DNA from: Periplaneta americana
Taxonomy: Eukaryota; Arthropoda; Insecta; Blattodea; Blattidae
DNA: 64,000 nucleotides
NCBI RefSeq assembly: GCF_040183065.1
Contig: NC_091120.1
Span: 72,628,708-72,692,707, forward strand
Reading direction: 5' to 3'
Numbering within the stretch: position 1 is the stretch's first letter; each line of letters starts with the position of its first letter. The notes under the pieces were generated by a model that was given only the letters and a program-made list of their open reading frames with translations, had not been told where the DNA came from and ran no database searches. Below are positions 3,813 through 42,789 of the stretch, piece after piece. The translations under genes and the position numbers were made by a program.

Positions 3813-4012
3813 CGGTGACGTACAACGTGTGGACGGGAATCTACAGCCACTATCGCGAATTGGAGGACAGGCTAAAGGCACCGTCGGAGTTCCAACTCAG
3901 AAATTTAGGATTCGAAAAGGAGTCCGAATCAGACATGTCGGATTCGCACCTGCCACTGTCAAAGGAATGCAGCTTCAATATGACAGCAGCGTCTTCGCCG
4001 GTGTCTCTTTAG
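3813..4012 (+). CDS. Multi-pass membrane protein, terminal coding exon
   Basis: This is the last exon of the gene whose preceding exon ends at 627. It begins after the CTCGCAG acceptor and reads AVTYNVWTGIYSHYREL, completing a third membrane segment. A charged cytoplasmic-type tail follows (EDRLKAPSEFQLRNLGFEKE, then SESDMSDSHLPLS) and the frame ends at TAG 4010-4012. The final ~17 residues (KECSFNMTAASSPVSL) lie in sequence homologous to the 71-bp minisatellite that follows, whose units read KEYIFNHMSPVSV-stop in the same register. The stop codon is therefore part of the repeat. Total length from the visible exons is ~170 residues, or ~145 if the 72-bp loop is spliced out. Confidence 0.75.
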
Positions 4013-5930
4013 ACAGCACTACTTCCCAGCTGTTAATGTGCAAAGAGTACATTCTCAACCACATGCTGCCGGTGTCAGTCTAGACAGCATTTCGTCCCAG
4101 CTGCCAATGTACCAGAAATATATTTTCAACCGCATCTCGTCGGTGTCTATCTTGGCAGCATTACGTCCCAGCTGTCATGCCAGTGTACAAGGAGTACATT
4201 TCCAACTACATGTCGCCGATGTCTGCCAAGACAACACTACGTTCCGGCTGCCAATGTACCTTCAACAACATGTACGAGTTCACTTTCAACCACCGACGTC
4301 TGCCTAGACAGCACTACGTCTCAGCTGCCAATGTACAAGGAGTACATTTTCAACATGTCGGTGGTGACTGTGTAGACAGAACTATTTCCCAGCTGCCAAT
4401 GTACAAGAAATATGTTTTAAACCACATATTGCCGGTGTTTGTCTAGGCAGTATTGATCCAGCTGCCAATGTACTGGGTGTACATTTTCAACCACATGTCG
4501 CTAGTGTCAGTCTACACAGCACTACAATCCGGCTGTCAATTTATAGGCCATTCGTTATCTTGTGAAACCTACCTGCGCATCGGGGAAGAATAAGGTGACT
4601 GAGAAGCTTTCCTCTCTCGCTACGCTCATACTTTTGGCTAGTGCGTTCAGTTTACTCCCCCACAAAGAGTCTTATTAAATGTTACGGCGCACGCAAGCAT
4701 TTGTTTTCATGAGATAACGAATGATCTATACAAGAAATACACTTTCAACAACATGTCTGCGGTGTCTCTCTCTAGACAACAAAATGTTCCAGTTGCTAAG
4801 TACAAGGAGTACATTTTCAAACACATGTCGTCTGTGTATGGCTAGACAGCACTACGTCCCAAAGTGCAAGGAGTACATTTTCAACCACATGTCGCCAGTG
4901 TCTGTCTAGACAACACTACATCCCAGCTGCCAATGTACAAGGAATATATCTTCAACCACACGTCGCTGGTGCCTGTCTAGACGGCACTATGTCCCAGCTG
5001 CCATTGTACAAGGAGAAAATTTTCAACCACATGTCGCCAATGTCTGTCTAGACAACACTACATCCCAGCTGCCAATGCACAAGGAATATATCTTCAACCA
5101 CATGTCGCTGGTGCCTGTCTAGACGGCACTATGTCCCAGCTGCCATTGTACAAGGAGAAAATTTTCAACCACATGTCGCCAATGTCTGTCTAGACAACAC
5201 TACATCCCAGCTGCCAATGTACAAGGAATATATCTTCAACCACATGTCGCTGGTGCCTGTCTAGACGGCACTATGTCCCAGCTGCCATTGTACAAGGAGA
5301 ACATTTTGAACCACATGTCATCCCTGTTTGTCTAGACAGCACTACGTCCAGCTGTCAACGTACAAGGCGTACAGTTTCAACCATATATCGTCGATACTTG
5401 TCTAGGTATCGCTAAGTTTCGGATAGCAATATGCCAATGTACAAGGAGTGTAGTTTCAACATGTCGCCGTGTTTAGCTAAAGAAAATTACGTTGTAGACG
5501 TCGATGTACAAGAAAAGTACTTTGTATAATATATTGCCGTTGTCTGTCGAGAAGCAATCTGTTCCAGTTTCGAATGTAGAAGATTGCAATTTCTGGCACT
5601 TTTCGGCGATTTTCTCTATACATCACTATGTCACAGCCGTTTTTTTTTTACAAGAACAGTAACTGTAAAGATATGTGGCCCATGTCTGTCTAGCACCACT
5701 ACATTTCAATTAACAATATACAAGGAGTGCAGTTTCAACTACTTGTCGTGCTACATGCCAATATGAAAGTACTGCATGTCACGGATTAGCAGTTGCTGCT
5801 TCGAAAATTCTACATCCCAGCTGCAAATATTAAAGACTTATCGCTGAAAAACGCCTGTCACCGGTGCATGTCCATAAAGCAATCTGTTCTACTTGTCACT
5901 ATAAAATAACTGCAGCTTCGATCAGATGGC
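3958..5930 (+). repeat. 71-bp minisatellite from the coding 3' end into the 3' flank
   Basis: The units are built around CAGCTGCCAATGTACAAGGA, TTCAACCACATGTCGCCGGT and GTCTAGACAGCACTACGTCC. Consecutive GTCTAGAC sites at 4904, 4975 and 5046 give a 71-bp period. Between ~4905 and 5330 two unit types alternate (GGAATATATC and GGAGAAAATT) and form 142-bp dimers. Copies decay toward both edges and are barely recognisable from ~5480 to 5930. The first unit includes the gene's stop codon. A MITE interrupts the array at 4544. Confidence 0.85.
4544..4728. mobile_element. TA-flanked MITE inside the minisatellite
   Basis: A 185-bp insert breaks a repeat unit between CAATTTATA and TATACAAG. Its termini are TAGGCCATTCGTTATCTTGT on the left and, reversed, TAGATCATTCGTTATCTCAT. 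It is flanked by TA (4542-4543, 4729-4730). The uninterrupted unit reads CAATGTACAAG, which supports a clean insertion. Confidence 0.8.
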
Positions 5931-37657: not shown

Positions 37658-39697
37658 ATGGATGTTTTGTCTTGTCTTGTCGCAGAACACGTTCTATACA
37701 ATGCTTGGTTCAGTTTTGTCTTGTCTTGTCACAGACCACGTTCTATACAGTGCTTGGTTCTGTTTGTCTTGTCTCGTCGCAGAACACGTTTTATACAATA
37801 CTTGGTTCTGTTTTGTCTTGTCTTGTCGCAGAACGCGTTCTATACAATGCTTGATTCTGTTTTGTCTTGTCCTGTTAGGTTAGGTTAGGTTATTTTTTAT
37901 TTTACGACGCTTTATCAACATCTTTGGTTATTTAGCGTCTGAATGAGATGAAGGTGATAATGCCGGTGAAATGAGTCCGGGGTCCAGCACCGAAAGTTAC
38001 CCAGTATTTGCTCATATTGGGTTGAGGGAAAACCCCGGAAAAAACCTCACCCAAGTAACTTGCCCCGACCGGGAATCGAACCCGGGCCACCTGGTTTCGC
38101 GGCCAGACGCGCTGACCGTTACTCCACAGGTATGGACTCTTGTCTTGTCGCAGAACGCGTTCTATACAGTGCTTGGTTCTGTTTTGTCTTGTCTTGTCAC
38201 AGAACACGTTCTATACAGTGCTTGGTTCTGTTTTGTCTTGTCTTGTCGCAGAACGCGTTCTATACAGTGCTTGGTTCTGTTTTGTCTTGTCTTGTCACAG
38301 AACACGTTCTATACAGTGCTTGGTTCTGTTTTGTCTTGTCTTGTCGCAGAACGCGTTCTATACAATGCTTGGTTCTGTTTTGTCTTGTCTTATCGCAGAA
38401 CACGTTCTAAATAGTGCTTGGTTCTGTTTTGTCTCATCTTGTCGCAGAACGCGCTCTATACAGTGCTTGGTTCTGTTTTGTCTTGTCGCAGAACGCGTTC
38501 TATACAGTACTTGGTTCTATTTTGTCTTATCTTGTCGGAGAACGCGTTTTATACAGTGCTTGGTTCTATTTTGTCTTATCTTGTCGCAGAACGCGTTCTA
38601 TACAATGCTTGGTTCTGTTTTGTCTTGTCTTATCGCAGAACACTTTCTATACAGTGCTTGGTTCTGTTTTGTCTTGTCTTATCGCAGAACACGTTCTATA
38701 CAGTGCTTGGTTCTGTTTTGTCTTGTCGCAGAACGCGCTCTATACAGTGCTTGGTTCTGTTTTGTCTTGTCGCAGAACGCGTTCTATACAGTACTTGGTT
38801 CTATTTTGTCTTATCTTGTCGGAGAACGCGTTCTATACAGTGCTTGATTCTGTTTTGTCTTATCTTGTCGGAGAACGCGCTCTATATAGTGCTTGGTTCT
38901 ATTTTGTCTTGTCTTGTCGCAGAACGCGTTCTATACAGTGCTTGGTTCTGTTTTGTCTTGTCGCAGAACGCGTTCTATACAGTGCTTGGTTCTGTCTTGT
39001 CTTGTTTTGTCGCAGAACGCGTTCTATACAGTGCTTGGTTCTGTTTTGTCTTGTTTTGTCGCAGAACGCGTTCTATACAGTGCTTGGTTCTGTTTTGTCT
39101 TGTCTTGTCGCAGAACGCGTTCTATACAGTGCTTGGTTCTGTTTTGTCTTGTTTTGTCGCAGAACGCGTTCTATACAGTGCTTGGTTCTGTTTTGTCTTG
39201 TTTTGTCGCAGAACGCGTTCTATACAGTGCTTGGTTCTGTTTTGTCTTGTCTTGTCGCAGAACGCGTTCTATACAGTGCTTGGTTCTATTTTGTCTTGTC
39301 TTGTCGCAGAACGCGTTCTATACAGTGCTTGGTTCTGTTTTGTCTTGTCGCAGAACGCGTTCTATACAGTACTTGGTTCTATTTTGTCTTATCTTGTCGG
39401 AGAACGCGTTCTATACAGTGCTTGGTTCTGTTTTGTCTTATCTTGTCGGAGAACGCGTTCTATACAGTGCTTGGTTCTGTTTTGTCTTGTCGCAGAACGC
39501 GTTCTATACAGTACTTGGTTCTGTTTTGTCTTATCTTGTCGGAGAACGCGTTCTATACAGTGCTTGGTTCTGTTTTGTCTTGTCGCAGAACGCGTTCTAT
39601 ACAGTACTTGGTTCTATTTTGTCTCATCTTGTCGGAGAACGCGTTCTATACAGTGCTTGGTTCTGTCTCGTCTTGTCTTGTCGCAGAACGCGTTTTT
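37658..39697 (+). repeat. 44/49-bp minisatellite, ~37 units
   Basis: The unit is CGCAGAACGCGTTCTATACA, GTGCTTGGTTCTGTTTTGTC and TTGTCTTGT (49 bp), or 44 bp when one CTTGT is missing. Each unit carries the perfect 12-bp palindrome AGAACGCGTTCT or a one-base variant (AGAACACGTTCT, AGAACGCGCTCT). No unit has a stop in any forward frame. Since 49 and 44 leave remainders 1 and 2 modulo 3, ORFs up to 436 codons overlap in all three frames. They are artefacts. A SINE splits the array at 37880-38134. Blocks of several units (for example 38455-38545 and 38705-38795) recur, pointing to higher-order duplication. Confidence 0.95.
37880..38134 (-). mobile_element. SINE family A, inserted in the minisatellite
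   Basis: The reverse strand has B box GGGTTCGATTCCCG and the full body, ending in the 3' module (TTTACGACGCTTTATCAACA in forward reading). TCTTGTC occurs on both sides, but it is also part of the array, so the target duplication is ambiguous. Units on both sides belong to the same repeat. Confidence 0.9.
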
Positions 39698-40893: not shown

Positions 40894-41510
40894 CATATTT
40901 ATAATGCTAATATTAAACGAGAGTCGCGTCACGTCGCACTTGTCATGGGAGAATATAAAGTACGCGGAGGTAGTCAGAGACCTACGGGAAAATCTCATTG
41001 CTGTTGCTCGGGTGGTCTATCTACTGTGTAGTATGACTGTGCTGCAACGTCCAGTACTCAAGGCTGAATTACACATGATAGATGACCGCGTTATATAGCG
41101 GATGTCGAACTAGTAGAGTGTTAATCAACTGTGTGTCTATCGCAATGCGTTAAATAGAAAAAGTGATTTTGAAAGATCTGAATGCCGCGTCTAGGCTCAA
41201 CGCTAGCATCCAGGCGACCAGAGTTCAATCCTTGGAGAGGTCGTGATGAAATGGGCAGGGCATAGTTGCGCCACACGGTCAGATAAAATGCAGCATATAA
41301 AAAGGGTCCCTGTTTTGTGGGCATAGTTGCGCCCTGTTCCCATCAGGTAGAGAAAAAGTCATGGCATAGTTGCGCCCCGTTCCCTTCAGATAGAGGAAAG
41401 GTCATGGCATAGTTGCGCCCCGATGAAATAGGTAGAGAAAAAGACACTACGGAAACTCGAGCCTCGTAATCAACCAACCTTATTGATTTCTTATTCGATT
41501 TATATTCATT

Positions 41511-41720
41511 ATCGATACCGTTAAAATGAACACCATGAAGTTGGCAGTATTTTATTAACTGTTTTTCTACTGTTTATGCAGAGATTATCGATAGCCTACC
41601 GCTAAAATGAACACCATGAAGTTTGCAGTACTTTATTAACTGTTTTTCTACTGTTTATGCAGTGATTATCAATAGCCTACCGTTAAAATGAACACCATGA
41701 AGTTGGCAGTACTTTATTCA
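41511..41720 (+). repeat. 76-81-bp tandem repeat, ~2.6 copies
   Basis: ATGAACACCATGAAGTTGGC followed by TTTTTCTACTGTTTATGCAG recurs with starts at 41511, 41587 and 41668. It lies inside the Mutator-like element. Confidence 0.9.
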
Positions 41721-41827
41721 CTGGCATATTCAAATGAGTGAGCCGTTGGAATATGGGGCCTTAGCAGTCTTGACATTTTATTAGTGATTTTCACACCGTC
41801 TGTGGCGTATAGTGAGGTTAATTTAAA

Positions 41828-42020
41828 ATGAATGTTAAGTTTAGTGAAAAGGGTGAAGAGTTAATAATTGATAATGGTTCTAAGTTTCAATTTTCGAAAC
41901 CCTGTACCGTAGGGTTAAGATATCGATGTAGAAACAAAAAATGCAGTTCATTTATTGTGTGTGATCAATAAAAAAGTGTTATTTTAAATAGCAAAATTGA
42001 TCATACGCTAGGCCTACCCG
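41828..42020 (+). pseudogene. FLYWCH-type zinc-finger remnant
   Basis: The frame from ATG 41828 reads MNVKFSEKGEELIIDNGSKF, then QFSKPCTVGLRYRCRNKKCS and SFIVCDQ, followed by a TAA. After it the frame reads ILNSKIDHT. This fits FLYWCH: a G-x-x-L-x-x-x-G-x-x-F start, Y-x-C-x-x-x-x-C in the middle and a terminal His region. The domain binds DNA and often precedes Mutator-like transposases. The stop and the lack of a transposase make it non-functional. Confidence 0.65.
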
Positions 42021-42789
42021 ATTTCAAATGTAGCTATCACTATAATATTTTTAAATAATTTATTTATTTTATGACAATCACTTTCGTGTGTACTATGCTC
42101 ATCGGGGCGCAACTATGTCATGTCCATCCTGCTACCTGATTTCTTCGGGGCGCAACTATGCCATGTCCCACCTGCTACCTGATTTCTTCGGGGCGCAACT
42201 ATGTCATGTTCCATCTGCTACCTGATTTCTTCGGGGCGCAACTATGCCATGTCCCATCTGCTACCTGATTTCTTCGGGCGCAATTATGCCATGCCTAGGC
42301 CTCCCAATTGACCGCGAGGCGCAACTATGCCATACAGGATGAAATTTGTGGTGGAGAAAGCAGAAATTCTAGTGGGTTTTCCGCTTCCTCTTTTCACTCC
42401 AACACACTCCAAATCCCCCTCATTCTACCATCTGCAATCAGTATTGCCAACGTAATTTACTCGTTACGTTTTTACGTAAATTACACGTAATTTATTAATA
42501 AATTGACTTGGAGTTGAAAACCGTTGTAATTAGTTCGTAGTGCTGCGTCATAGTGAGCCCACAATATTGAAAAAAAAAAAAAAAACATATTATACAGAGT
42601 GAGCCGTAAGTAATGTAATTAATTTTAGGGGTTATTCTTTACGATATTTCAAACAGAAAAGTTTAATAAAATTTTGCATGTTTTTGCTTACTTTACGACA
42701 TAAAAATTGTTTTATATAAAACGTTTCATACCGTGTTTTGGGAAAGCCATTGAAAGAATTCGCAATATACTCAGACAATATTTTTTGCT

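Follow-up and report, generated by a model that had tools for sequence, protein, structure and literature searches.

The window, a 64,000-nucleotide stretch of the Periplaneta americana genome, contains a 1085 bp element that is very probably a Mutator-like (MULE) transposon of the Mutator/Foldback type which has become non-autonomous by deletion and would be moved by a FLYWCH-MULE transposase made elsewhere. It is one of very many copies in a large genome and represents a new family of an already described element type, with a plan close to that of Tm1 (PMC3169594). Its parts, with positions counted from the first letter of the window, are the following.

41253 to 42337, plus strand: whole non-autonomous element, 1085 bp, bounded by the duplications and with ends common to other copies
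41245 to 41252, no strand: left target-site duplication GATGAAAT; 8-bp duplications recur in related copies
42338 to 42345, no strand: right target-site duplication GATGAAAT, an exact match to the left copy
41253 to 41258, plus strand: A-end tip, GGGCAG (read as CTGCCC on the opposite strand), the same in 25 of 30 copies
41259 to 41446, plus strand: A-end array of four units in forward orientation, 61 apart at the first gap and 43 thereafter
41516 to 41723, plus strand: internal 81-bp tandem array, 2.6 copies, with a copy number that differs among elements
41829 to 41969, plus strand: FLYWCH-like remnant of a transposase N-terminus, 47 aa followed by a stop
42102 to 42331, minus strand: B-end array of six reverse units, gaps 43, 43, 43, 42 and 41
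42332 to 42337, minus strand: B-end tip; the minus strand reads CTGTAT in this element and CGGTAT in 23 of 30 copies

The boundaries follow from the exact copies of GATGAAAT on both sides. These bear out the flanking 8-bp duplication claimed in the preliminary description and place the start at 41253, so that the position given there, 41254, was one base late. A third copy of GATGAAAT lies at ~41421, within the last left unit. When up to three mismatches were allowed, the core GGCATAGTTGCGCC was matched 14 times in the window, compared with a mean of 1.85 and a maximum of 6 in 100 shuffles. The forward cores start at 41259, 41320, 41363 and 41406 and are all exact, while the reverse cores start at 42106, 42149, 42192, 42235, 42277 and 42318, three of them exact and three with one mismatch. 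The start-to-start spacings (61, 43 and 43 bp on the left; 43, 43, 43, 42 and 41 bp on the right) confirm the reported layout of four forward units facing six reverse units, mostly at 43-bp spacing. The internal 81-bp array was absent from the preliminary description.

Other tandem repeats are present in the window. Arrays of a 49-bp unit run in the same direction at 37663-37875 (~4 copies) and 38138-39694 (~32 copies); because no inverted copies of this unit were found between 37000 and 40500, they are not an array-ended element by the inverted-copy test. Arrays of a 71-bp unit occupy 3995-5390, and their second half shows a higher-order period of 142 bp at 95% match.

A genome-wide count of the exact core in the 3.23-Gb genome returned 13,727 matches (7035 forward and 6692 reverse), and exact A termini, GGGCAG joined to the core, numbered 707 (345 + 362); the reversed-pattern control gave 0 in each case. 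We compared the window with six loci from the head of the core-match list (L009-L014) and with the 30 best matches of the remnant search. From these 37 sources we obtained 30 delimited copies, after removing two doubles (L059, which is the window itself, and L070, identical to L011) and dropping five loci that could not be delimited (L045, L052, L060, L068 and L069). Young copies are over-represented in this sample, since most were chosen as best remnant matches. One copy, L050, resembles a composite of two elements, its A side being interrupted by a gap of 542 bp.

The duplications and the tips recur throughout the sample. At one fixed offset, an 8-bp duplication was exact in 20/30 copies and had at most one mismatch in 25/30, whereas a control that joined left and right flanks from different copies gave 0/870 exact matches and 2/870 with up to one mismatch. 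The length of 8 bp agrees with the ~8-11 bp target-site duplications of MULEs; duplications of 8 bp alone do not decide the superfamily. Four more copies (L010, L066, L056 and L074) have exact 8-bp duplications at a shifted A boundary: the A tips of L056 and L074 carry one extra base, and those of L010 and L066 lack five bases. As L010 and L066 keep exact duplications nonetheless, our results suggest that a shortened A tip can still transpose. No duplication was found in L073, whose B end looks truncated. The short tips, asymmetric and placed outside the inverted repeat as in Tm1-type elements, read GGGCAG in 25/30 copies and CGGTAT in 23/30; L011 reads CTACCC instead of CTGCCC on the other strand of its A tip. 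At the B end of L009 the special outermost block is absent, and an ordinary 43-bp unit plus CGGTAT ends the array, next to an exact 8-bp duplication. A search with the joined flanks of the window element (joined with one base too many) matched only the window and L059 among the fetched sequences, and no paralogous empty site was recovered from that set.

The arrays vary widely. In 29 copies (L009 was left out of these counts) unit number ranges over 3-9 in the A array and 3-43 in the B array, and in L009, counted separately, 67 reverse units recur at an unvarying 43-bp spacing; the number of end repeats thus varies, a point that the preliminary description had proposed to check. The array of L045 comprises at least 32 units before the locus ends. 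Single-unit ends, which would have spoken against the proposed layout, occurred in 0/29 copies, with a minimum of 3 units per end in copies chosen by core or remnant. The outermost 41-bp B gap was found in 29/29 copies, partly by construction because the B-end template includes that gap. The interior was measured in 28 copies, 22 of which deviate from the majority sequence by no more than 2.6% yet differ in unit number (A 3-9, B 3-26); the arrays therefore change more quickly than their surroundings. Divergence within the array was lower (2.2-5.6%) than the between-element mean of 6.4% in 7/9 long arrays, but not in the other two (6.8 and 7.1%). The internal 81-bp array likewise differs among elements, with 2 to 20 copies in register. 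Inverted ends whose tandem units vary in number are the mark of fold-back and Tm1-type elements, and the likeness to fold-back elements noted in the preliminary description holds, with a plan close to Tm1.

The coding content of the element points to the transposase. The 47-aa piece starting at 41829 scored 16.4 bits against Pfam FLYWCH (E 0.01), below the cut-off of 23.6, and an unrelated family, Megourin, scored slightly above FLYWCH on the same piece, also below its own cut-off. We then compared the remnant with MULE transposases of the same genome, obtained by a PF10551 search in which the 150 best of 1106 MULE-domain candidates were scored. In 8 of 30 fetched MULE loci the remnant aligned to the region before the MULE domain, each time more than 3 above its own shuffles; against L015 the score was 72, and the best of 30 shuffled queries reached 45. 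In the copies found, a methionine opens the remnant, which sits between the arrays where the N-terminus of a transposase is expected. The FLYWCH remnant named in the preliminary description thus falls below the Pfam cut-off on its own and gains its standing from the alignment, which matches it to a FLYWCH zinc finger as in Phantom-type transposases; by these scores, it shares homology with the FLYWCH portion of MULE transposases encoded in this genome.

A coding partner within the family was sought in several ways. The family core was absent from the 30 fetched MULE loci (~3.2 kb each) and from three further long MULE ORFs, which are of other types. The nearest MULE match to any remnant lay 55,790 bases away, among the best 150 of 1106 MULE and the best 150 of 1818 remnant candidates, and a PF04500 genome search gave no autonomous partner among the best 150 of 3379 candidates. 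Full copies with a MULE DDE domain, which the preliminary description had proposed to look for, were accordingly not found among the matches listed in the PF10551, remnant and PF04500 searches and the coordinate comparison. As to the assignment to MULE itself, the variable array ends, the 8-bp duplications and the FLYWCH-MULE homology stand in its favour, and the DDE domain is the part that was not found within the family. A 68-aa piece in the interior of L012 was considered as additional transposase sequence and rejected. Most of the best 150 of its 1393 first-look candidates genome-wide begin only at residue 8, and it is similar to the C-terminal portion of an ORF with a reverse transcriptase domain in L033 (31% over 35 aa, E 0.044); we now read it as a probable inserted LINE 3' end.

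The MULE search also brought to light a second array-ended family, with 16 loci (L015, L017, L018, L020-L024, L026-L029, L031, L035, L037 and L039), one of which, L037, partly reads N. Three of its ORFs were scanned: MULE was above the cut-off in 3/3 (51.9-63.2 bits) and FLYWCH in 2/3 (28.7 and 31.7), the third, an ORF that starts late, scoring 13.8. With up to two mismatches, the motif AGTTGGTTCCC forms forward left-end arrays with a 34-bp period in 10/16 loci, from 2 to 26 units long; the left end otherwise has a single unit in 1/16 loci and none in 5/16, some being truncated. At the right end, four reverse copies spaced by 34, 34 and 20 bp were found in 13/16 loci. Simple shuffles gave 0-3 matches of the motif per locus. 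Exact duplications of 7-9 bp adjoin the tips in 4/8 loci with both ends recognised (L020, L021, L023 and L028) and were not found in the other four, among which L031 and L039 had the right end matched at an inner unit; the swapped-flank control gave 0/56. Since this family carries both transposase ORFs and terminal arrays, the same genome does contain a FLYWCH-MULE transposase enclosed by array ends. Between the two families, unit similarity is not significant, 227 to 443 of 500 shuffles being as good in an ungapped comparison. For the same reason we rejected AGTTGNNNCCC as a binding site shared by the units of both families: it occurs in both, but shuffled units compare equally well. Helical phasing was also discarded, as spacings of 41, 43 and 62 bp lie near 4 and 6 turns but the 34 bp of the second family do not.

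The second family bears on the possibility that the arrays are plain minisatellites, expanded within a dispersed repeat and without any function in transposition. In its favour, tandem growth also occurs away from the tips, as seen in the internal array of 81-bp units and in the long arrays of the B end. Nevertheless, we consider it unlikely, because the arrays stand at both ends in opposite orientation with one common core, at least three units per end are kept in 29/29 copies (chosen by core or remnant), and a second FLYWCH-MULE family independently displays end arrays of a different unit. Moreover, the end tandem repeats of Galileo hold demonstrated transposase binding sites (PMC3688188).

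We next set the Mutator/Foldback reading of the window family beside known systems. Tm1, a Mutator/Foldback family of root-knot nematodes, combines FLYWCH and MULE in one coding type and shares with our family the oppositely oriented ends of variable tandem unit number and the many non-autonomous copies (PMC3169594). Its asymmetric tips of 6-7 bp, CGGTTAA or CGGATAA and CCTACCC, bear a short, apparent likeness to the CGGTAT and CTGCCC (CTACCC in L011) of the window family (PMC3169594). The two differ in unit length (43 bp in the window family vs ~14 bp in Tm1), in units per end (up to 67 vs 1-9), in the duplications (8 bp vs mostly 9 bp) and in number (very many copies vs 61 analysed); the window family has an internal 81-bp array, unlike Tm1, and Tm1 has a coding copy, whereas none was found among the window-family matches listed (PMC3169594). 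Muta1 and other MULEs of Aedes aegypti are similar in their 8-9 bp duplications, long ends, subterminal tandem repeats and non-autonomous copies with varying repeat number, and Muta1 moves in a yeast assay; they differ in their units of 9-15 bp, in the palindromic tip motif of Muta1 and in having known autonomous copies (PMC5225508). Tetris, a fold-back transposon of Drosophila virilis, differs in that its unit of ~220 bp lies inside an outer flanking domain, in its few complete copies and in the expansion of its arrays into satellite DNA (PMC4079207). The plan is exemplified further by Tetris and the Muta families (PMC4079207, PMC5225508), and the tables of a Mutator review place minisatellites beside aphid Phantom transposase ORFs (PMC6446971). 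According to the preliminary description, this layout is not known to have been described from cockroaches, and our literature search, conducted largely without subscription journals, returned no relevant cockroach report; the array-ended layout itself is already described for Mutator-type elements elsewhere, in Tm1 (PMC3169594) and the Muta families (PMC5225508).

It is very improbable that the element comes from a different superfamily that makes 8-bp duplications (P/Galileo-like or hAT), resembles MULEs only superficially and holds its FLYWCH-like remnant as a captured piece: fold-back ends do arise in other superfamilies, as in Galileo, whose internally repetitive long ends vary in repeat number and contain binding sites in the repeats but whose transposase is of the THAP-domain P type and not MULE (PMC3688188, PMC3573991), and no DDE domain was found in the window family among the matches listed, yet the methionine-initiated remnant between the arrays matches MULE transposases in their N-terminal part, the tips are asymmetric and similar to those of Tm1, whose transposase is Phantom-type (PMC3169594), and no P or hAT protein was seen by eye in six-frame readings of the interiors of L010, L011, L012 and L065, so that the stretches read contain no transposase of the kind that would have contradicted the MULE call.

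On the Mutator/Foldback reading, we infer that a FLYWCH-MULE transposase from elsewhere in the genome moves the window family. It would cut at the two tips, which adjoin the outermost cores, and the element would be inserted at an 8-bp staggered cut, by analogy with Muta1. The repeated core is most likely the transposase binding site, as the Galileo example suggests, and each end would for that reason offer many sites. The number of units would shift fast through unequal exchange or replication slippage within the array, a process suggested by the variable array length together with the partial homogenisation. A broader proposal, possible but doubtful, is that the arrays are fast-changing docking banks for the transposase, that competition among non-autonomous copies for a common FLYWCH-MULE transposase tunes array length, and that at least two MULE families have converged on the array-ended design with unrelated units.

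The window family provides a large natural series of ends, ranging from 3 to 67 units, around interiors that are nearly identical, and the second array-ended family, with its transposase ORFs in the same genome, provides a comparison. The family thereby makes an old question about fold-back elements testable, namely, whether extra units help, hinder or do not affect transposition.
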